NCBI RefSeq assembly: GCF_030389965.1
Contig: NZ_CP128399.1
Location: forward strand, 2,284,934-2,348,933
Length of the DNA: 64,000 nucleotides
Reading direction: 5' to 3'
DNA from: Candidatus Chlorohelix allophototropha
GTDB lineage: Bacteria > Chloroflexota > Chloroflexia > Chloroheliales > Chloroheliaceae
The notes under the pieces are model-generated. The model did not search any database and was not told where the DNA came from. It saw nothing but the letters and a program-made list of their open reading frames with translations. Positions 4,817 to 15,282 of this stretch are shown here, one piece after another. Position 1 is the stretch's first letter; every line of letters starts with the position of its first letter. The position numbers were made by a program, and so were the translations under genes.

Positions 4817-6025
4817 TTAATTCAAGGATTGGTATAACTCTAGCGTGTCGGCAGCTGCCTTTTCCCAAGTATATTGGGCGGCACGTTCTAAGCCTTTGAT
4901 CCGTAATTCATCTATCAACTTGTGATCTCCATCAAGACTGGTAAGAATCTGCCTAATTCCTTGAGCGATTGAATCAACCTGCAATGGGTTACACATCACC
5001 GCAGCGCCTTCAAAAACTTCGCTCAGCGCCGAATTGTCAGATACCAGCACCGGAGTGCCACAAGCGAGCGCTTCGAGTGGTGGAATACCAAAGCCTTCGT
5101 ACAGGCTAGGAAAGACGAATAAATCAGCGAGATTGTACAAAGCAGGTAAATCTTTGTCAGATACAAAATCGAGCCAGACAATCTCATTCTGCATTTTTAG
5201 TTCGGTGATACGCCGAAAAATCGGCTCGTATTTCCAACCGCGCCGCCCTGCCAGCACCAGTTTTCGCCCTTTACCCTCCGGTGTATTTATAATATTGCGC
5301 CAAGCTTCCACTAAGCGCACCAGATTCTTGCGGGGTTCAATCGTACCAACGAAAAGAGCAAATCGGGGTGGTAAGCCCAATTTTGAGCGCACTTCTTCTA
5401 AAGCTTGCGTGTCGGTGAGAGAGTGAAATTTAGGGCTTACTCCATTATAGATAACCTTTATTTTATCAGGGGGTAATTTCAACCGTTCTACCAACTCACG
5501 TTTGATGCTTTCGGAAACCACAATAATTCGCTCGGCTTGCCTAGTAGCACGAGGCACTGCCTCAGTCAGATAGCGGCGCAACTTATCGTCTGCACACTCC
5601 GGCACCACAATGAAGCTCAGGTCATGAACCGTCACAATATCTTTGCCAGAGCGATGAGGAGCCATTACAAAATCGGGGAAATGTACTATATCAAGTTTCC
5701 CAAGTTGATTTGGAAAAGGAAAGGGATTTTCAAACCGGACAACCCACTCTAGAGGAAGGGGTACACGTGCCCTTTGCCACACCCGAGTCAGAAATGGCTC
5801 GGAGAAGGGCAGACGCGCAAATGAGACAACCGGACGATACTTTATTTCAAGGCTGCGGATATAATTTTCCTGCTGGTTGGTAAGTTTGCCACCAGCATAA
5901 AATAGGACAAATTCAAGACCATGAGGTTCATTTTCCAGCAACGTAGTAACCAAACTACGGGTGTGTCGTCCTACACCCGCCGCTTGTCGAATTGCTGCCG
6001 TAAAATCTATACCAATCCGTTTCAC
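4817..6025 (-). CDS. GT4-family glycosyltransferase
   Basis: A retaining GT-B glycosyltransferase that transfers a sugar from a nucleotide-sugar donor, probably at the cytoplasmic face of the membrane. The N-terminal acceptor domain has GIDFTAAIRQAAGVGRHTRS. The C-terminal donor domain has LFVGTIEPRKNLVRL, LAGRRGW and the E-x7-E signature in FPSLYEGFGIPPLEALACG. I chose the GTG at 6025 (402 residues), because GTGA then overlaps the TGA stop of the upstream gene by four bases. An in-frame ATG at 6076 would add 17 non-homologous residues. It belongs to the leftward polysaccharide locus. Donor and acceptor are unknown. Confidence 0.9.
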   Translation of the reverse strand: MKRIGIDFTAAIRQAAGVGRHTRSLVTTLLENEPHGLEFVLFYAGGKLTNQQENYIRSLEIKYRPVVSFARLPFSEPFLTRVWQRARVPLPLEWVVRFENPFPFPNQLGKLDIVHFPDFVMAPHRSGKDIVTVHDLSFIVVPECADDKLRRYLTEAVPRATRQAERIIVVSESIKRELVERLKLPPDKIKVIYNGVSPKFHSLTDTQALEEVRSKLGLPPRFALFVGTIEPRKNLVRLVEAWRNIINTPEGKGRKLVLAGRRGWKYEPIFRRITELKMQNEIVWLDFVSDKDLPALYNLADLFVFPSLYEGFGIPPLEALACGTPVLVSDNSALSEVFEGAAVMCNPLQVDSIAQGIRQILTSLDGDHKLIDELRIKGLERAAQYTWEKAAADTLELYQSLN

Positions 6026-7089
6026 TTTTTCCTGCTGAAAATATAAACCAATCCGCCAATAAGTATGATACTCCAATAATTTACTACTCTATCCAAAATA
6101 GCTACTGAAGCTGCCATGTTCTTCTCGACGCTGAAAGCGGTCAGAACTCCCACCACCGCACCTTCAACTGCACCCAGACCGGCAGGAGTAAAGGGAAGTG
6201 TCGTCAAAAGCGAACTGGTTAAGGCAACAAAGATTGTTACCGACAGACCTAACCCTGTTATACCCAACGCTTGCATTACAAAGAAAAGCCGCATGCCTTC
6301 CAACATCCAAATTATACCAGTCAAAAAGTATAACTTAAACAGGGTTTTGCGATGAAAAGTGCTAACTGTCCCCTGCTGGAATTTGTGATAGATTCCGTGC
6401 AGGCGTTCTGGAATAAATTTCTCTATCTTGTGGCTGTAAAAACGCAAGGTCAACAAACCGACCGCCATCCCCAGCACCAACACGCCACCAAGCGCGAAAA
6501 TCAAGGACAGATCGGTGAATTTGCTTTCTACCCGGCTAAAAGCTACTGCGCCGCCAAAGCAAAGCAGACTGAATAAAACCAATAGGTCAGCAACACGCTC
6601 TCCGAAGATAGTACCAAGCGTGCGACTAAAGCTGGCATTGGCGTTCTTCTTGAGAAGATAGCCTCGGTAAGCATCTCCCAATTTGGCAGGAACTATGCAA
6701 TTGACAAACCAACTCAGGAAAATTATCTCAATCAAACCGGGTAAGGGTGGTAATGTAACCCCGTGTTCTTGGTCAAAGCGGGCATTGCGCAGCAACATAC
6801 GCCAGCGTATTCCTCGGATTAAAAAGGTGGAATAATAAAGCGCAAAAGCTGCCAGTAGATAGAGTAAATTGGCTTTCAGGATGTTGTCGAAAGTAGTAGC
6901 AAAGTCAATTTTGACGGTAAGAATAAAGAAAACGATGATAGCCGCCGAGATACCAAAGCCTAAAAGGGTTTTGACATCCAGAAGGCGGTCTTTGAGTGAA
7001 ATATATGATGCTTCGACTTCCTGCTCATCCTCAAGCTCATCATCAAACATTTCCACGGGCAATTTCTCTTCCAAAGTATTTTTTCTCAA
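6022..7089 (-). CDS. Lysylphosphatidylglycerol synthase-like / UPF0104 flippase-domain membrane protein
   Basis: A 355-residue polytopic membrane protein with about eight hydrophobic segments after a 40-residue acidic N-terminus (DDELEDEQEVE). RGIRWRMLL, FVNCIVPAKLGDAYR and PAGLGAVEGAVVGVL are the signature segments of the LPG_synthase_TM (UPF0104/AglD-like) family. Members lie next to glycosyltransferase genes and are thought to move or use lipid-linked substrates. Here the gene is translationally coupled to the GT4 gene (4-base overlap), which supports a role in polysaccharide or glycolipid assembly. The reaction is not known. Confidence 0.85.
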   Translation of the reverse strand: MRKNTLEEKLPVEMFDDELEDEQEVEASYISLKDRLLDVKTLLGFGISAAIIVFFILTVKIDFATTFDNILKANLLYLLAAFALYYSTFLIRGIRWRMLLRNARFDQEHGVTLPPLPGLIEIIFLSWFVNCIVPAKLGDAYRGYLLKKNANASFSRTLGTIFGERVADLLVLFSLLCFGGAVAFSRVESKFTDLSLIFALGGVLVLGMAVGLLTLRFYSHKIEKFIPERLHGIYHKFQQGTVSTFHRKTLFKLYFLTGIIWMLEGMRLFFVMQALGITGLGLSVTIFVALTSSLLTTLPFTPAGLGAVEGAVVGVLTAFSVEKNMAASVAILDRVVNYWSIILIGGLVYIFSRKK

Positions 7090-7121: not shown

Positions 7122-8078
7122 TTAGCCTTCCCTACCTTCACTCTTGTACCAATCAAAAAATCGACTATAGCCCTCCTCAAATGTAGTAACAGGCTCGAAA
7201 TCGAGCAAGCGACGGGCTTTTGAAATATCGGCAAAGGTAATAAGCGGTTCGCTGGCAGGGCGTTCTAGATAGTTAATTAGCGCGGGTTTACCCAAAGCTT
7301 TTTCTGCCGCACGGATAAAATCCATTTCGGTATGAGTGTTGCTATTGCCGAGATTGATTATTTCATAATTAAATGGGCGATCGAGCGACGCAATTACACC
7401 CCTGACCGTATCCAGCACAAAAGTCCAATCACGCCGAGCTGACCCATCTCCAAAAAGATTTATCGGTACATCCCGGTCTATGGCATTCGTAAATAGGTAA
7501 ACAGCCATATCAGGGCGGTTGCGTGGACCATACACTGTGAAGAATCGAAGCGCCGTTACTTTTAGATCAAAAACGTGGCTGTAAGTATAGCCTAGCAATT
7601 CGGCGGCGCGTTTGGTGGCAGCATAGGGATGCGGCGGAAAATCCACCCGGTCTTCCTCATTAAAAGGTACATTGGTTCTACCACCATAGACCGAGCTACT
7701 ACTTGCCATTACAAAATGGGGAATGCCGAATAGGCGCGCAAGTTCGAGCAGGTTTTGAGTGCCTTTTACGTTTACCTCTTCGTAAAGTAGTGGGTACTTA
7801 AGAGAGTAACGTACCCCTGCCATACCGGCTAAATGGCAAATTTTATCCGGTCGTTCGTGCTTGATTATAGTTTCAAGCGCCTCGTAATTGCGAAGGTCAG
7901 TTCTGTAAAGTGTAAAATTCTTATTTGTGCAAGCAACTCGCAGGTTTCGTTCTTTGCGCACCGGATTATAGTAATCGTTAAAATTATCCACACCAACAAC
8001 TTCATCGCCCCTAGCCAGCAATGCTTCTGCTACGTGGCTGCCGATAAAGCCTGCCGATCCGGTCAATAAAACTTTCAA
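7122..8078 (-). CDS. NAD-dependent nucleotide-sugar epimerase (UDP-glucuronate 4-epimerase-like SDR)
   Basis: A 318-residue extended short-chain dehydrogenase. It shows the NAD-binding GSAGFIGSH at residues 7-15, catalytic Ser/Thr in MASSSSVYGG, and the YxxxK pair in YAATK. The DNFNDYYNPVRKERN segment is characteristic of UDP-glucuronate/UDP-galacturonate 4-epimerase-like enzymes. It would supply an activated sugar to the flanking glycosyltransferases. The gene sits 32 bases upstream of the UPF0104 gene on the same strand. 4-epimerisation of UDP-glucuronate is the best guess; a different UDP-sugar is possible. Confidence 0.88.
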   Translation of the reverse strand: MKVLLTGSAGFIGSHVAEALLARGDEVVGVDNFNDYYNPVRKERNLRVACTNKNFTLYRTDLRNYEALETIIKHERPDKICHLAGMAGVRYSLKYPLLYEEVNVKGTQNLLELARLFGIPHFVMASSSSVYGGRTNVPFNEEDRVDFPPHPYAATKRAAELLGYTYSHVFDLKVTALRFFTVYGPRNRPDMAVYLFTNAIDRDVPINLFGDGSARRDWTFVLDTVRGVIASLDRPFNYEIINLGNSNTHTEMDFIRAAEKALGKPALINYLERPASEPLITFADISKARRLLDFEPVTTFEEGYSRFFDWYKSEGREG

Positions 8079-8131: not shown

Positions 8132-9658
8132 TCATACTCGCTCTTTGTCTAATTTACCTACCAGATAAAATAGAGCCAGTACTCCACACCATTGGATTCC
8201 CAGATTTAAAACATGCAGATTCTCTACCAAATTATGGAACATTACAGCAGACACAATTCCCAATGCACCCCAAGCTACATAACGCAGCGATATGTCACAG
8301 GTTAAACGCGCTGTTTTCCAGCCGTTTACAAATACTGAGATTACCAGTAGCAGGTAAGCGGTCAAACCAACCAACCCGGTTTCTGCCGCTGCATGTATAT
8401 AATAATTATGGGCATGACCACGCGAATAAATCCATTGTGGGGCATTGAACATATTGTAGGTAACATCGAAATTTCCGATTCCAACTCCAAAAAATGGATT
8501 GGAGAGGAACATATTTCCACCTGCCTGCCACATCGCCATGCGCTCAACCACTGCGTAATTATCGGGATTCGGCACTACATCCCTCACATCAAATGGGGTC
8601 AACAAATCTGCAATGCTGGTAATACGAGTGGCAATACTTGGTGATAAAGCTCCGGTTTGTAGCCCTAACCCCCCGAAAATAACTAAAGCCACCAATGCCA
8701 GCCATACCCAAAGGGACTTTTTCCCGCGTACTGCGATCATTACCAGCACGCCCACCAGCAAGCCAAGCCATGCCCCGCGTGAATAACTTGCCACCACCGC
8801 TACAATTACAATGGTTGCGGAAGGCAATGTTATCAGCAACAAAAGATAAGAACGGATAACAGCTTTTCGTTCTGTCTGGCGAGGTTGCCCTTCTTTGTAC
8901 AGCCACGCACTCATCGACTGGTTTCTGAGTTTCCAAGCCAAGAAGATAAGCGCAACCACAATGGGCAGGCTCATTTCAAGATACCCGGCAAAAGGATTCG
9001 GAAAAGTAAATGTCCCAAACGCGCGAGAGAGGTCTTGACTGATAGCGAAACTCTCCGGTCCTAGATTCAATCCGGTTTGAAGAATACCTAAAGCTGCCTC
9101 AAAAATACCGCCAATTGCTAAAACTCCCACCAATTGCCAAAACTGGCGGCGCGTTTCAATAACACTAGTTGCCAGTAAGTAGGCAAAGAAGGTAATCAGC
9201 CACCGACTAATCGCGTTCAAGCCTTCACCGAGATTATATGCGGTAAGCAATGAGATAATCATTGCGCCAATATAAACAAGAAACCATTTTAGAAGGGGCG
9301 GCGTAGGCGTTTTTACAAAAGGCTTATGGAAGGTACAGCGATTCACGAAGTAGGCGGCAAGTGTTAGCAATACTACAACCTGTGTTACCGTCAGCGTTTG
9401 TCCACCACCTAACGGGAAGGTAACTACATCCTGCACCGGCACAGACAAAATCATTAAGTACAAACCGTACTGTGGATAACGCGCAATTACCAAAAAAGCG
9501 CAGATGCCAACTATTATCGCCGGAGCTATATAAAAGGGTTGGGTAATGAAAAGCCAGAGGAACAGTGGCACAAGCAGGGCTGTTACTAATTGTATAATGG
9601 TAAATTTAGCCGAAGCGAAACGGCGCACCCGATAGATTGTATTAAAAATAACCGTCAC
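8132..9658 (-). CDS. O-antigen ligase/polymerase-like (Wzy_C) membrane protein
   Basis: A 508-residue integral membrane protein with about twelve hydrophobic segments and the Wzy_C/WaaL core: SYSRGAWLGLLVGVL, a long periplasmic-type loop, then NPFFGVGIGNFDV and RGHAHNYYIHAAAETGLVGL. Such proteins ligate or polymerise polyprenol-linked glycans outside the membrane. The GTG start at 9658 overlaps the stop of the upstream small membrane protein by four bases (GTGA). A second, larger member of the same family lies at 10953. In an organism that probably lacks LPS, polymerisation or attachment of a surface polysaccharide is more likely than O-antigen ligation. Confidence 0.88.
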   Translation of the reverse strand: MTVIFNTIYRVRRFASAKFTIIQLVTALLVPLFLWLFITQPFYIAPAIIVGICAFLVIARYPQYGLYLMILSVPVQDVVTFPLGGGQTLTVTQVVVLLTLAAYFVNRCTFHKPFVKTPTPPLLKWFLVYIGAMIISLLTAYNLGEGLNAISRWLITFFAYLLATSVIETRRQFWQLVGVLAIGGIFEAALGILQTGLNLGPESFAISQDLSRAFGTFTFPNPFAGYLEMSLPIVVALIFLAWKLRNQSMSAWLYKEGQPRQTERKAVIRSYLLLLITLPSATIVIVAVVASYSRGAWLGLLVGVLVMIAVRGKKSLWVWLALVALVIFGGLGLQTGALSPSIATRITSIADLLTPFDVRDVVPNPDNYAVVERMAMWQAGGNMFLSNPFFGVGIGNFDVTYNMFNAPQWIYSRGHAHNYYIHAAAETGLVGLTAYLLLVISVFVNGWKTARLTCDISLRYVAWGALGIVSAVMFHNLVENLHVLNLGIQWCGVLALFYLVGKLDKERV

Positions 9659-9951: not shown

Positions 9952-10896
9952 CTATTTTCGGCTGGCGCTACGAAAATACTCAATTGTATGACGTAGCCCT
10001 TCTTCAAGGCTAACAACGGGTTCCCAATCAAGCAACCGCCGAGCTTTGCTAATATCAGGGCAACGTTTGTTGGGATCATCGGTGCGCCCATCAAAAAACT
10101 CTATTTTCGCTTCAGAGTTACAAACCTCTAATACTCTGTTGGCAAAATCGAGAATAGTACGTTCGTCCGGGTTGCCCAGATTAATAACCTCACCTTTGGT
10201 AGCGGGATGGAACATCGCCCGCATAATCCCTTCCACAATATCAGATATATAGCTGAAAGAGCGGGTTTGCATGCCGTTACCGTAAATTGTAAGCGGGCGA
10301 TTCTCCAACGCTTGCATGATGAAATTTGGCACTACCCGTCCATCTTGGGGGTCATTGCGAGGACCGTAGGTGTTGAATAAGCGTACTATACGCGCATCTA
10401 GGTTAAACTGGCGCACATATTCGATGGTTAGGCTCTCCCCAAATCTTTTGCTCTCATCGTAGCAACTGCGTGGACCAACCGGATTCACATTTCCCCAGTA
10501 ATCCTCACGCTGAGGATGTTCGAGGGGGTCTCCGTAGGCTTCGGACGTGCTGGTATAGAGCAATTTCGCTTCACTGGCAAGCGCCAATTTTAGCATGTTA
10601 TGAGTTCCTACCGAGTTTACCAGATGTGTTTCAATCGGATTACGGGTATAGCCAACCGGGCTGGCAGGGCTTGCCAAGTGGAATATTGCGGATACAGGGT
10701 CTCCACTCGGTTGCCAAGGCTGAATTATGTCATGTTCATAAAATTCATATTCCGGATGTTCAATAAAACTCGCAATATTTTCTCGCCGTCCGGTAATCAA
10801 ATTATCCAGCGCAATAACATGATGCCCTTGTTCCAGTAAACGTTCGGTAAGATGTGAGCCGATAAACCCCGCACCCCCGCTAACCAGTATCTTCAC
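9952..10896 (-). CDS. UDP-glucuronate decarboxylase (UXS)-like SDR enzyme
   Basis: A 314-residue extended SDR. It has GGAGFIGSHLTERLL at the N-terminus, HLASPASPVGY, TSTSEAYGDPLEHPQ and the catalytic YDESK in GPRSCYDESKRFGE. GPRNDPQDGRVVPNF and DDPNKRCPDISKARRLLDW are closely like UDP-glucuronate decarboxylases, which make UDP-xylose. Cytoplasmic, NAD-dependent. It belongs to the leftward polysaccharide operon with the epimerase at 7122, which may act on the same UDP-glucuronate pool. dTDP-glucose dehydratase-like activity is the main alternative. Confidence 0.88.
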   Translation of the reverse strand: MKILVSGGAGFIGSHLTERLLEQGHHVIALDNLITGRRENIASFIEHPEYEFYEHDIIQPWQPSGDPVSAIFHLASPASPVGYTRNPIETHLVNSVGTHNMLKLALASEAKLLYTSTSEAYGDPLEHPQREDYWGNVNPVGPRSCYDESKRFGESLTIEYVRQFNLDARIVRLFNTYGPRNDPQDGRVVPNFIMQALENRPLTIYGNGMQTRSFSYISDIVEGIMRAMFHPATKGEVINLGNPDERTILDFANRVLEVCNSEAKIEFFDGRTDDPNKRCPDISKARRLLDWEPVVSLEEGLRHTIEYFRSASRK

Positions 10897-10952: not shown

Positions 10953-13900
10953 TTAATTGTCGTTATCTTTCCTCAAACTTACCCTGCGCATAGCTTCAAG
11001 CAGACCAAAGGATAAACAGAAAATAGCGGCAAGGTCAACAAGGAAATATGAGTTATCCACCAAACCATGTGCGACAAAATCAACCATACTGCCAGAAAGC
11101 CCCAGCACTAATACTTGTCTTACTTTAGCGTCAGGGGTATTTAAGCTTTTAAAAATCGGTGACCACGCTGTCCTGAAAAATACAACTAGCAACCATATTA
11201 TGAGCACTGGTCCTATTATACCCAATCTAAGCCAGTAATCCAACAAAATGTCATGGGGGTGACTGGTAAATCGTTCCAACCAAGCTTCCGGTCTTACATA
11301 TTCAAGCTGATATTTGTACAAAAACTGATCCAACCCAATTCCGGTAAGTGGGTGGTCGCGTATCATATCCAACGAAGCCTGCCAGACATGCAAGCGCGTA
11401 TTATTGCTGCCCGTCACGAAACTGAATAGAGAAGTGATTCTTTCCAGCTTGATAAAAGGTATGGAAGCTACCAGACCTAACGCCCCGATTCCGAAGATTA
11501 TTAACCCGCGCCGGGAACGCACAATGATAATCATTACCAGCAAGGCAAGCGCAGATGCCAGCCACGCCCCTCGCGAAAAACTGAGAATTAATGTACCCAA
11601 AAGGGGCAACAACGCTAAGCCGTACACTACACGCCGCCGCGCCAACTCTTTAATTGCCCCACCGAAAAATGCAACGGCTGTAACTAGCGGTATTATGCGT
11701 CCGATGTACAAACCTAGATTATCCGGGTGAGAATATATCGAAATTACTCGGCTAACTCCCTCCGCTGATACGGTATTATCTTTGGATAAAAGAAATTGGT
11801 AAAATGCCCCTGCCGCAATTAATAAACTAGCCAACACCAACACATCGAAGATTCGAATGAACTGTTCACGCTTGCGGATAAAGCGAACGGTTAGCAGGTA
11901 CAGAATGAGCGGTTCTACGATTACCACCCGGAAATCGCGCAAGGCTTCCCGCAAATGGCTAGGCTCAGGAGTTAATAGCGATATGGTCGCAGCAAGTCCG
12001 AACAACAGCAACGGCAAGGCAAAAGCGCCCTGTCTGCGCCACCATGTTAACCAATTAGTGGGGAAAGTAATTGTGCGAGTTCGCCATATTTGATATAGAG
12101 TGCTTGCAAGCCACGCAAACGCCGCAATAACAATGATTACTTCAAATAAGGAAAACTCCAGAGGGTTTTGAGGCAGATTATTGGGGTCGCGCGGCACTAC
12201 CAGATTTTTAATTCTGGTAAAGGGGTCAAGGCTCTCTCTCAAATTGCGCGGATTTAGATATAGCGGGGCGGTGAAAATCGCCAGATATATCATCCAATCC
12301 GGGCGCACAAGAGCTAAGGGAAAGAGCAGCAGTGCGCCAAATATTGCCAAGGGCGCGGGGGGCGCAAAATAAAATAATAACAATGCGAAAATCATGCCAT
12401 AGGGCGCAAGGCTGTAACGGTTTTGCCATATTCGGCGCAATTGGCGCAACACCCATAGCCAAAAGAGCGGCAAGCCCTTCTCCAACGCTCTAAAGGTGCG
12501 CCAACCCAGCACAGAACCACTACCAAGCGTAGTCAAACCACTGAGTAAATATAGCGGCAGAAATAGCCAACCCCATGCATTATCATTAGAAACATAGAAA
12601 CCATATGAGGCAAGTTGCCCAACTGGTAAAGTCATTTCCAGCGTGTGTAGCCCGTAGCTCAATCCGTCCGCCAATTGCAAACGCTCTGTTTGAGGCGAAA
12701 GCTTGATAGTTGGGGAAGTTTTGCCATCAATGCTATAGCTTATTTCAGTTTCCTTCGATACCTTGAGTCCGGCGAGGTCAAGTTGCTGCCCTTGAAAGCG
12801 GAACTGCAAGCGTTGGTTTTCAAGCGTAATAGCCGGGCTATTCTGAGCATGAAAGCCAGTAGTCGCAATGCTATAGTTCGTTAAAGCATACTGCTGAAGC
12901 GCGGTATAAGCCGGACGCACCGACCAATCCGGGTTTATCAGCGCAAAATAACGCGCTTGTCCCCATAAATCGCTTCTATCTAGCAAGTATTTGTCCGCTT
13001 TAAGGAACCAAACGTTGACTACGCCAACCCAATCCCACTCCTTACGCGCCCGCTCGATACCCTTTACCAAATACTGCGCTTGGGTAGCCTCATCAATATT
13101 TTCACCCCAAGGCTTTAGCGGGTATTGCTGTACCACTTTATCCGGCATACTCAACCAACCGTACTCGGTAATCCACACCGGACGTTTGCCGTCATCATGT
13201 TTCAGCATCACCGCGCGCATATCAGCTAACCGCGAGAAATTAACCCGTTTCAAATCCTTTTCGCGAAAATCAGGCTCGGTAAAACGGTAATCCGGCGAAT
13301 AACCCAAGCCGTATGCCTGTGCCGCCAAAATATCAAAATATTTCGCGCCGCCAGCCTCATAAAACTGGTCAAGATATTTCAGGTCATTCAGGCTGTTAAA
13401 CTCGGCGCCATCCTGATTACTCGGAGCAAGCGCAGCCGTAATAATCACTACATCAGGGTTAGCGGCTTTGGCACGTTCATAAGCTACTTTGAGCAAATCC
13501 ACATAACCCGCAGGGTTTACCCGTTTGGCATTCCATTCCACTTCCAGATTAGGCTCGTTCCATATCTGGAAATATTTTATTTTCCCCTTGTAGCGGGTAA
13601 CTGCCGCTTCAACGAAATTGCCCCAATCGTTTAAATCATCCGGTGGCCCGGTTACATCTAAACTTGGTGGTATGGTTTTCAAGACTTGCTCTCGCGCCCA
13701 CACCGGCGGCTGATCGAGACGCGCTATTATTTTTATGCCGCGTGAGCTCGCTTTTTCCACAATCGCATCATATTTAGCCCAACCGTTTTGACCATCGCGG
13801 TCATTATAACTGCCTTTTAACTCCTGAATATCCTTCCACGGAAAAAGCTGGCGAATATAACCATAGCCCCCCGCTTTTACCAAATCAAGAATTCGATCTA

Positions 13901-14138
13901 TATTTGCAGTATCTTCTAGGTTTAGAAAGGTATTGACCCCTAACGGGTTAGCGCCTAAATCTCCCGCCTGTGTATAGGGTATAGCGGGGTGATTAGTGTC
14001 GTAGGTTACGCCTTTATTAAAGTAAAGATCGGCGAAAGCAGTGGCAGCAAGGGAAAAAAGACTGAGAATGAGTAATAAGAGTAAAAGGGTAACTTTTAGC
14101 AATGAACGCCCGGTTGTAACTTTTAGGGGAGTTGGCAC
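10953..14138 (-). CDS. Fusion: secreted clan A glycosidase-like domain plus O-antigen ligase-like membrane domain
   Basis: A 1061-residue protein from a GTG at 14138. Residues 15-37 form a signal/anchor segment. Residues about 60-420 form a TIM-barrel glycosidase-like domain with acid/base Glu195 in QIWNEPN and nucleophile Glu325 in WITEYGW, as in GH5/GH39-type clan A enzymes. A beta-rich stretch follows (about 420-525). From about residue 527 there are many membrane segments with Wzy_C features: SFSRGAWLASALALL and DHPLTGIGLDQFLYKYQ. Glycan cleavage and ligation functions in one chain are unusual. It may process its own polymer or perform transglycosylation; this is inference. It lies 3 bases from the next upstream gene in the operon. 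Confidence 0.85.
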   Translation of the reverse strand: MPTPLKVTTGRSLLKVTLLLLLLILSLFSLAATAFADLYFNKGVTYDTNHPAIPYTQAGDLGANPLGVNTFLNLEDTANIDRILDLVKAGGYGYIRQLFPWKDIQELKGSYNDRDGQNGWAKYDAIVEKASSRGIKIIARLDQPPVWAREQVLKTIPPSLDVTGPPDDLNDWGNFVEAAVTRYKGKIKYFQIWNEPNLEVEWNAKRVNPAGYVDLLKVAYERAKAANPDVVIITAALAPSNQDGAEFNSLNDLKYLDQFYEAGGAKYFDILAAQAYGLGYSPDYRFTEPDFREKDLKRVNFSRLADMRAVMLKHDDGKRPVWITEYGWLSMPDKVVQQYPLKPWGENIDEATQAQYLVKGIERARKEWDWVGVVNVWFLKADKYLLDRSDLWGQARYFALINPDWSVRPAYTALQQYALTNYSIATTGFHAQNSPAITLENQRLQFRFQGQQLDLAGLKVSKETEISYSIDGKTSPTIKLSPQTERLQLADGLSYGLHTLEMTLPVGQLASYGFYVSNDNAWGWLFLPLYLLSGLTTLGSGSVLGWRTFRALEKGLPLFWLWVLRQLRRIWQNRYSLAPYGMIFALLLFYFAPPAPLAIFGALLLFPLALVRPDWMIYLAIFTAPLYLNPRNLRESLDPFTRIKNLVVPRDPNNLPQNPLEFSLFEVIIVIAAFAWLASTLYQIWRTRTITFPTNWLTWWRRQGAFALPLLLFGLAATISLLTPEPSHLREALRDFRVVIVEPLILYLLTVRFIRKREQFIRIFDVLVLASLLIAAGAFYQFLLSKDNTVSAEGVSRVISIYSHPDNLGLYIGRIIPLVTAVAFFGGAIKELARRRVVYGLALLPLLGTLILSFSRGAWLASALALLVMIIIVRSRRGLIIFGIGALGLVASIPFIKLERITSLFSFVTGSNNTRLHVWQASLDMIRDHPLTGIGLDQFLYKYQLEYVRPEAWLERFTSHPHDILLDYWLRLGIIGPVLIIWLLVVFFRTAWSPIFKSLNTPDAKVRQVLVLGLSGSMVDFVAHGLVDNSYFLVDLAAIFCLSFGLLEAMRRVSLRKDNDN

Positions 14139-14140
14139 TT

Positions 14141-14590
14141 TCAGTGGTTCTTCTTCTCTTTAATAATTCGCAAACGCAATGCCCCAACTTGAACTACCAG
14201 ACCTATTAGAGTCACCCACATTCCCCAGCCATAGGTAGTTTCGTTAAATAGAGGGGTAGTGCTGCGTTGAGTTTGATTAAAGGGCAGCCATGCCAGCAAA
14301 GGTATGGCAACAATCAAGAACAAGAAAGCCCCCATCCATTTTAGAACTTCACGCAGCACGGTTTTACCTTGACGATAACATAATTCTAGGTAAGAAAAAC
14401 AATTTGCCACTGAAAAAATAATGAACAGGTTCAAACCTAAGAAATTTAGTAACAACGCCCAGACGGGTTGCCAACCAAAATCCGGTGTTTTCCCCAATGG
14501 CCCGTATTGCCATGGTCCGGCAAACCCGGCAAGCAGCAATAAAAAAGAGAGCCATTGCAGAACGAGATAAAAACGGGCACTCTGCTTCAT
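14141..14590 (-). CDS. Membrane protein of unknown function in the polysaccharide operon
   Basis: A 149-residue protein with four hydrophobic segments (roughly residues 8-26, 43-63, 80-100 and 118-138) and a basic C-terminus (RIIKEKKNH). No family is recognised. I chose the ATG at 14590, because its ATGA overlaps the TGA stop of the upstream gene by four bases; an upstream in-frame start would overlap that gene by over 50 bases. Its stop lies 2 bases before the GTG of the glycosidase/ligase fusion, which indicates one transcript. Confidence 0.65.
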   Translation of the reverse strand: MKQSARFYLVLQWLSFLLLLAGFAGPWQYGPLGKTPDFGWQPVWALLLNFLGLNLFIIFSVANCFSYLELCYRQGKTVLREVLKWMGAFLFLIVAIPLLAWLPFNQTQRSTTPLFNETTYGWGMWVTLIGLVVQVGALRLRIIKEKKNH

Positions 14591-15237
14591 GTGCCTTGCC
14601 TCAAAACTGAGGTTACCAAGCGCTTGATTACCGTTTGCCATTCCGAGCTTGCCGGATCAGTTTCTTCAATCGGGAAGGGGTTGTAATTTACCTGTAAGCC
14701 ACTGCGCGCTAACTCTTCCGCTACTGAACGGTTGCCTGCCATAATTCGCCATGATTCGGCAAGTCCGCGTCTCTCCGATTGCAAAAGTGAAGACACATTG
14801 CCATGCAAATCAAGATTTGCGCCCCCATTTGTATCTTTTGAGCGAGGAGGGTTTGCGCTACTACGGCGCGTTACAAAATTGGGTAAGTTAATCAGCCAAC
14901 TTATTTTATGCGGGTGACTCAAAGACCATGCCGGGAAATCTAGACAAATCACTAGGTCAATGCTGCGCCCGTTGCTTTCCTTTAAATCCAGCAAGCGCCA
15001 GCCAAAAGCGGCTTTTGCAATGTCCCGTGGCTGAAAACTGCGCAAGGGCACTTTAACTATATCGCTATCAACTCCGGCGAGCTTTAAAGCAGCTACAAGC
15101 AAACGTGCTTTTTCTGGAACTAAATGTGCTTGGCGCGTGGCTTCATCTTCCTCAGTAGCAGGATTCTCCGGTTCAAGATTTTCAAAGCTTGCTTGCGTGT
15201 AGCAAACTAGCGCGGTTTCGAGTTTTTCCAGCATCAT
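14587..15237 (-). CDS. Orphan N-terminal domain of a GT4-type glycosyltransferase
   Basis: About 216 residues. It includes RLLDLKESNGRSIDLVICLD followed by FPAWSLSHPHKISWLINLP. This matches the acceptor-side (N-terminal) Rossmann domain of GT4 glycosyltransferases of the LDLxESNGxxIDLVI...FPAYLxxHPNK type. The usual C-terminal donor-binding half with the E-x7-E motif is absent; the protein ends soon after the AGNRSVAEELARSG linker. No frameshifted remainder was found downstream, where the next gene overlaps by four bases. It is probably non-catalytic, or works with another GT. The start is uncertain: ATG at 15237 or 15234, or TTG at 15279, with no clear ribosome site for any. Confidence 0.6.
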   Translation of the reverse strand: MMLEKLETALVCYTQASFENLEPENPATEEDEATRQAHLVPEKARLLVAALKLAGVDSDIVKVPLRSFQPRDIAKAAFGWRLLDLKESNGRSIDLVICLDFPAWSLSHPHKISWLINLPNFVTRRSSANPPRSKDTNGGANLDLHGNVSSLLQSERRGLAESWRIMAGNRSVAEELARSGLQVNYNPFPIEETDPASSEWQTVIKRLVTSVLRQGT

Positions 15238-15249
15238 CTTATAGAAATA

Positions 15250-15270
15250 GCCGGAATGTGCTATTCCGGC
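15250..15270 (-). other. Intergenic hairpin between the SH3 protein and orphan GT genes
   Basis: A perfect 8-bp inverted repeat (GCCGGAAT and ATTCCGGC) with a 5-base loop sits just before the probable start of the orphan GT gene. There is no long T-run after it on the minus strand, so it is more likely an attenuator or mRNA-processing hairpin than a full terminator. Confidence 0.45.
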
Positions 15271-15282
15271 ATTTCCCAACGA

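Follow-up and report, generated by a model that had tools for sequence, protein, structure and literature searches.

A PslG-like glycosidase domain and a Wzy/WaaL-type membrane domain encoded by one gene in Candidatus Chlorohelix allophototropha and other Chloroflexota

One gene of Candidatus Chlorohelix allophototropha raises the question of whether a glycosidase and an O-antigen ligase-like membrane domain are really encoded in a single chain, and what such a protein may do. The window analyzed here is a stretch of 64,000 nucleotides (contig NZ_CP128399.1, positions 2,284,934 to 2,348,933), and all of the evidence presented was computed. A sequence-only reading of the window had described a glycosidase half with the clan A glutamates 195 and 325, followed by a membrane half with features from about residue 527, and knew of no standard family with such an order. 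The gene was located as follows.

10953-14138, minus strand: glycosidase-Wzy/WaaL fusion gene, 1061 aa, GTG start, one open frame without an internal stop

The order of the halves and both glutamates were correct, the membrane features start at about residue 523, and no Pfam or NCBIfam model covers the combination of a glycosidase with a Wzy/WaaL domain.

It had also been asked whether the gene is intact across relatives or is an assembly join. A full-length single frame was found in all five genomes searched from its own family, the four others at 48-53% identity; 11 genomes from a different family of this class also have it, at 37-38% identity. An assembly join was rejected, since independent assemblies (L037-L040, L042-L049 and others) show the same single-frame layout. 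Among the matches listed, a tally by hand gave at least 57 of the 400 sampled Chloroflexota genomes, in about 20 family groups, with one frame spanning both halves; a further spanning match (G078) is interrupted by a stop. Named relatives with the fusion are Ca. Chloroheliaceae L227-5C (50% identity), Chloroploca, Chloroflexus and uncultured Chloroflexales. The best 80 loci in the search of genome contigs were all from Chloroflexota, and the plasmid search returned no record with 80% coverage. The intact single-gene fusion at this locus is confirmed as a real observation. Two separate genes in relatives, which the sequence-only reading had named as grounds against it, do occur in Roseiflexus (L050) and in L179-L185, but they adjoin each other in one operon; separate neighboring genes were found, among relatives of greater distance, in L050, L064, L099, L179-L182 and L184-L185. 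Such adjoining split genes show a history of fusion and fission and suggest a functional coupling of the halves, not an artefact.

The glycosidase half consists of a barrel carrying the two glutamates and a following β-sandwich.

12876-13970, minus strand: (β/α)8 glycosidase domain, residues 57-421, PslG/GH39-like (AF2 model, PslG fold and profile matches)
13554-13556, minus strand: codon of E195 (GAG), predicted acid/base in the NEP motif, aligned with PslG E165 (conservation, PslG alignment)
13164-13166, minus strand: codon of E325 (GAG), predicted nucleophile, aligned with PslG E276 (conservation, PslG alignment)
12588-12857, minus strand: β-sandwich, residues 428-517, weakly CE2_N-like (model strands; CE2_N at 431-502, E 2.6e-5, below the cut-off)

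By single-sequence Pfam search the assignment of this half is weak. Cellulase/GH5 at residues 67-232 (19.9 bits against 23.5) and GH39 at residues 165-230 are both under their cut-offs, and since the GH39 (PF01229) score of 17.2 bits is below the curated Pfam cut-off of 26, the PslG-like domain is not assigned to GH39 there. By profile and modeled fold, the assignment to the PslG type is firm. The top PDB profile match is PslG (E 2.8e-20), followed by 5jvk (1.6e-13), and the PslG profile alignment pairs the Glu of the NEP motif and the Glu of strand 7, the second stretch being weak when taken alone. In the AF2 model of the whole chain (38-row alignment, mean pLDDT 88.4), the eight strands of a (β/α)8 barrel are present in order with a pLDDT of about 90 (residues 66-70, 94-100, 136-142, 189-192, 231-233, 270-276, 321-327 and 371-376). 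E195 is located just past strand 4 and E325 within strand 7, which are the clan A positions, and both are conserved in every family row covering the sites (31/31 and 30/30, respectively). The top PDB fold matches are PslG chains with Z of about 32, while 5jvk scored 30 and the remainder 27.7 or less. The model and alignments indicate that the first half is most likely a PslG-like retaining endo-β-glycosidase, this activity being predicted. GH5 was rejected as the home family, as it is weaker than PslG by profile and by fold, but single members may belong to it, L059 exceeding the GH5 cut-off.

PslG of Pseudomonas aeruginosa (GH39, encoded in the Psl cluster; PDB 5bx9, 4zn2 and 9g17) is the closest known protein by profile and fold, with aligned catalytic glutamates. 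It is a retaining endo-β-glucosidase with E165 as the acid/base, E276 as the nucleophile and a covalent glycosyl-enzyme, and it hydrolyzes a defined substrate (PMC11912335). Psl production drops on loss of PslG or of PslG activity, and the inner-membrane fraction of the enzyme matters (PMC6813494). Release of the polymer during Psl synthesis has been proposed as its function (PMC6813494, PMC9075953); its role in synthesis is disputed, with contrary results cited in PMC6813494. Like the fusion glycosidase, PslG belongs to a polysaccharide synthesis cluster and is located at the membrane, but it is a separate protein of 442 aa, whereas the domain described here is fused to Wzy/WaaL and has a second membrane tether. 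Since the identity to PslG is below 20%, PslG specificity is not transferable to the fusion.

The glycosidase half is bracketed by two membrane helices.

14016-14114, minus strand: N-terminal membrane helix, residues 9-41, signal anchor (hydropathy, AF2 helix H9-41)
12477-12572, minus strand: membrane helix past the glycosidase, residues 523-554, the C-terminal anchor of standalone homologues (homologue survey, AF2)

Judged from the sequence, the glycosidase is outside, because positive charges precede helix 9-41 and follow helix 523-554; beyond this charge pattern, its sidedness is presumed. Standalone homologues carry the N-terminal helix in 59 of 60 cases and the C-terminal helix in 49 of 60. 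Since they are already membrane-tethered, the fusion merely extends an existing tether into the transferase. The Chlorohelix genome also encodes a standalone member of the glycosidase family, 490 aa in length, at a site away from the operon (L186:5288; C1 about 2871458).

The membrane half follows the second helix.

10962-12419, minus strand: polytopic Wzy/WaaL-type glycosyltransferase domain, residues 574-1059 (AF2 of the half; 7tpg WaaL, Z 24.8)
11199-11615, minus strand: Pfam Wzy_C core, residues 842-980, with R856, R915, H960 and H962 (Pfam, conservation, WaaL alignment)

The Wzy_C match (E 5.5e-24) scored 85.1 bits, above the cut-off of 31.7, and the NCBIfam search of the fusion protein added IctB, RfaL and AxeC2, all below threshold. 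Folded alone by AF2, this half gave a pLDDT of 90.2 and a pTM of 0.90. The top fold match is the O-antigen ligase WaaL (7tpg, Z 24.8); the SEDS proteins FtsW and RodA scored 11.6 to 15.5, and others 5.7 or less. WaaL 7tpg is also the sole PDB profile match (7.5e-16), and its outer-loop motifs RGA, RxxxW and HxHN align with the fusion. R915 and H960 are present in 25 of 25 rows, and all four of R856, R915, H960 and H962 in nearly all rows, so that the half has the GT-C fold of WaaL together with conserved outer-loop Arg and His. Since no close structure other than that of WaaL has been solved, the WaaL match cannot separate a ligase from a polymerase. The Wzy_C superfamily comprises CAZy GT121 and the BP-Pol families, in clan GT-C1.

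The earlier description as O-antigen ligase-like held for the WaaL/Wzy fold and motifs, but a role in LPS ligation is improbable, because the genome (95% complete) gave no LpxC or Omp85 match in either search, both of which detect the controls E. coli, Caulobacter, Synechococcus and Bacteroides. The protein thus differs from WaaL in this genomic setting as well as in carrying a glycosidase. The membrane domain is best read as a polymerase, or as a ligase whose acceptor is not lipid A, and the earlier interpretation as a whole was partly supported. Initiating transferases, Wzz-like proteins and flippase-like proteins are encoded elsewhere in the genome. Its other long Wzy frame (L003, 1072 aa) was rejected as a second case, being a Wzy domain followed by a repeat-rich region (TPR-like by eye) without a glycosidase.

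In the window, the fusion gene is followed by five genes of the same operon, assigned by Pfam and by the neighborhoods of relatives.

9952-10896, minus strand: NAD-dependent sugar epimerase/dehydratase, at the same place in many relatives
8132-9658, minus strand: second, standalone Wzy_C protein
7122-8078, minus strand: NAD-dependent sugar epimerase/dehydratase
6022-7089, minus strand: LPG_synthase_TM family membrane protein
4817-6076, minus strand: GT4 glycosyltransferase

The same or a similar order was observed after the fusion in L037-L040, L105/L170, L160, L163, L166, L167, L171 and L176, and after the split pair in L168, L179, L180, L181, L110 and L112. In L103 and L110, the glycosidase and Wzy genes are separated by a PMT_2-type gene. 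In L112, a 969-aa protein (L112:11735-14641) with a C-terminal Wzy_C and a long N-terminal part without assignment occupies the positions of the PMT_2 and Wzy genes of relatives, and is possibly a second fusion type. Upstream of the fusion in the window, two short genes without a Pfam match are located on the same strand (14141-14641 and 14587-15279), the former terminating 3 bases ahead of the fusion start codon. At about 15 loci, the fusion is directly preceded by an additional member of the glycosidase family, mostly on its own tree branch, in a tandem arrangement of glycosidases (for example L105:9896-11125, L044:9923-11047, L166, L167 and L169-L171). Standalone glycosidases are followed by a PMT_2 protein in L058, L061, L065, L076, L082, L084, L085, L091-L095, L097 and L108; PMT_2 (GT-C, using polyprenyl-phosphate-sugar) represents another type of transferase partner on the outer face. 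In L100, L101, L104, L106, L107, L109 and L114, cytochrome b and cytochrome c genes immediately precede the standalone glycosidase.

A branch with a support of 99 divided both trees of the glycosidase domain, which held 131 and 125 copies. On one side were all fused copies, 12 of the 15 adjacent-split copies and five to six others, and on the opposite side were the copies beside PMT_2 genes, the copies just upstream of fusions and those with other neighbors. The fused share is inflated, since L147-L176 were mostly chosen for spanning both halves; the contrast between the two sides is independent of that share. The fused label required 9 changes on the glycosidase tree, compared with 36-38 in shuffles, which indicates repeated fusion and fission inside a single Wzy-linked lineage. 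Fused copies cluster on the tree of the Wzy half too, with 7 changes against a shuffled mean of 28.8.

We consider the protein to be, with reasonable probability, a bimodular surface-glycan assembly enzyme that combines a WaaL/Wzy-type transferase with a built-in PslG-like endoglycosidase acting on the glycan of the same operon. The C-terminal GT-C transferase would take polyprenyl-diphosphate-linked glycans at the outer face of the membrane, and would polymerize repeat units or join undecaprenyl-linked glycan to an acceptor. The PslG-like domain would be held on the same face by the membrane helices at both ends. The endoglycosidase would most likely cleave the nascent polymer of its own operon, and the cleavage may set polymer length or free the polymer from its carrier or synthesis complex; transfer, as in cut-and-rejoin, may also occur. 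The computation shows the two folds, the conservation of the catalytic residues, the membrane tethers, the single gene and its spread, the conserved operon, and the fused and adjacent forms; the activity, the linkage, the substrate and the joint action of the domains on the same chain are what we infer from these features. Several points count against this reading: the second Wzy_C protein of the operon could be the polymerase; the sister glycosidase lineage, beside PMT_2 or cytochrome genes, is not everywhere bound to Wzy; the low identity to PslG bars a transfer of its specificity; and the role of PslG in Psl synthesis is itself contested.

It is rather unlikely that the protein serves attachment instead, with the ligase coupling completed glycan to a lipid, a protein or a polymer of the wall while the glycosidase opens the acceptor glycan or trims the donor end. 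That WaaL is the nearest solved structure would fit such a ligase, but the match separates ligase from polymerase no better. The second Wzy_C of the operon could then be the polymerase, and WadA of Brucella/Mesorhizobium, a bimodular WaaL-type protein in which GT121 is fused to GT25, is a precedent for a ligase with a fused partner enzyme (PMC10920833). Like the fusion, WadA joins a Wzy/WaaL-type domain to a further glycan-active domain within a single chain, but its partner GT25 builds, whereas the partner here is a predicted hydrolase. With no LpxC or Omp85 match the acceptor would not be lipid A. Still less probable is remodeling by a true transglycosylase, which would rejoin chains while the Wzy domain supplies new ones: the covalent glycosyl-enzyme of the retaining GH39/PslG type permits transfer (PMC11912335) and the fusion would keep acceptor chains nearby, but PslG itself hydrolyzes its defined substrate (PMC11912335), and no sequence feature examined separates transfer from hydrolysis. 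Least probable of all, and very doubtful, is an accidental tether, with the fusion arising as a side effect of operon order and the glycosidase only degrading outside polysaccharide, for feeding or for self-clearance, since the repeated interchange of fused and split states (9 label changes) and the family members without a Wzy neighbor are opposed by fused or adjacent forms in about 20 family groups, the same operon around split forms, membrane tethers at both ends, and glycan synthesis genes in the rest of the operon.

PelA, PgaB, BcsZ and AlgL are degrading enzymes inside polysaccharide synthesis systems, mostly synthase-dependent ones, and their folds or mechanisms differ from those of the fusion glycosidase; to our knowledge, none is fused to Wzy. 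Several cluster-encoded hydrolases and lyases are named in PMC6813494 and PMC9075953. Bimodular WaaL-type proteins and cluster-encoded hydrolases are already known, but a fusion of a PslG-like endoglycosidase with Wzy/WaaL was not found in the open literature searched, although subscription papers or database architecture listings may mention it.

The bimodular assembly enzyme proposed above may represent a phylum-wide class in which both domains work on the same growing polymer and cutting sets its length or release, possibly in place of a Wzz-type regulator; this extension is held tentatively. Degrading enzymes are common in exopolysaccharide synthesis clusters, and the need for them there has been stated as unresolved (PMC9075953). 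That the fusion is kept in about 20 families, and that the split form retains the same operon, would suggest that cutting belongs to synthesis. Since the pair occurs across the phylum, either fused or as neighbors, and both predicted activities of the one protein could be addressed separately by point mutations, the Chloroflexota would be well suited to studying why the machinery that makes a polysaccharide is also equipped to cut it.
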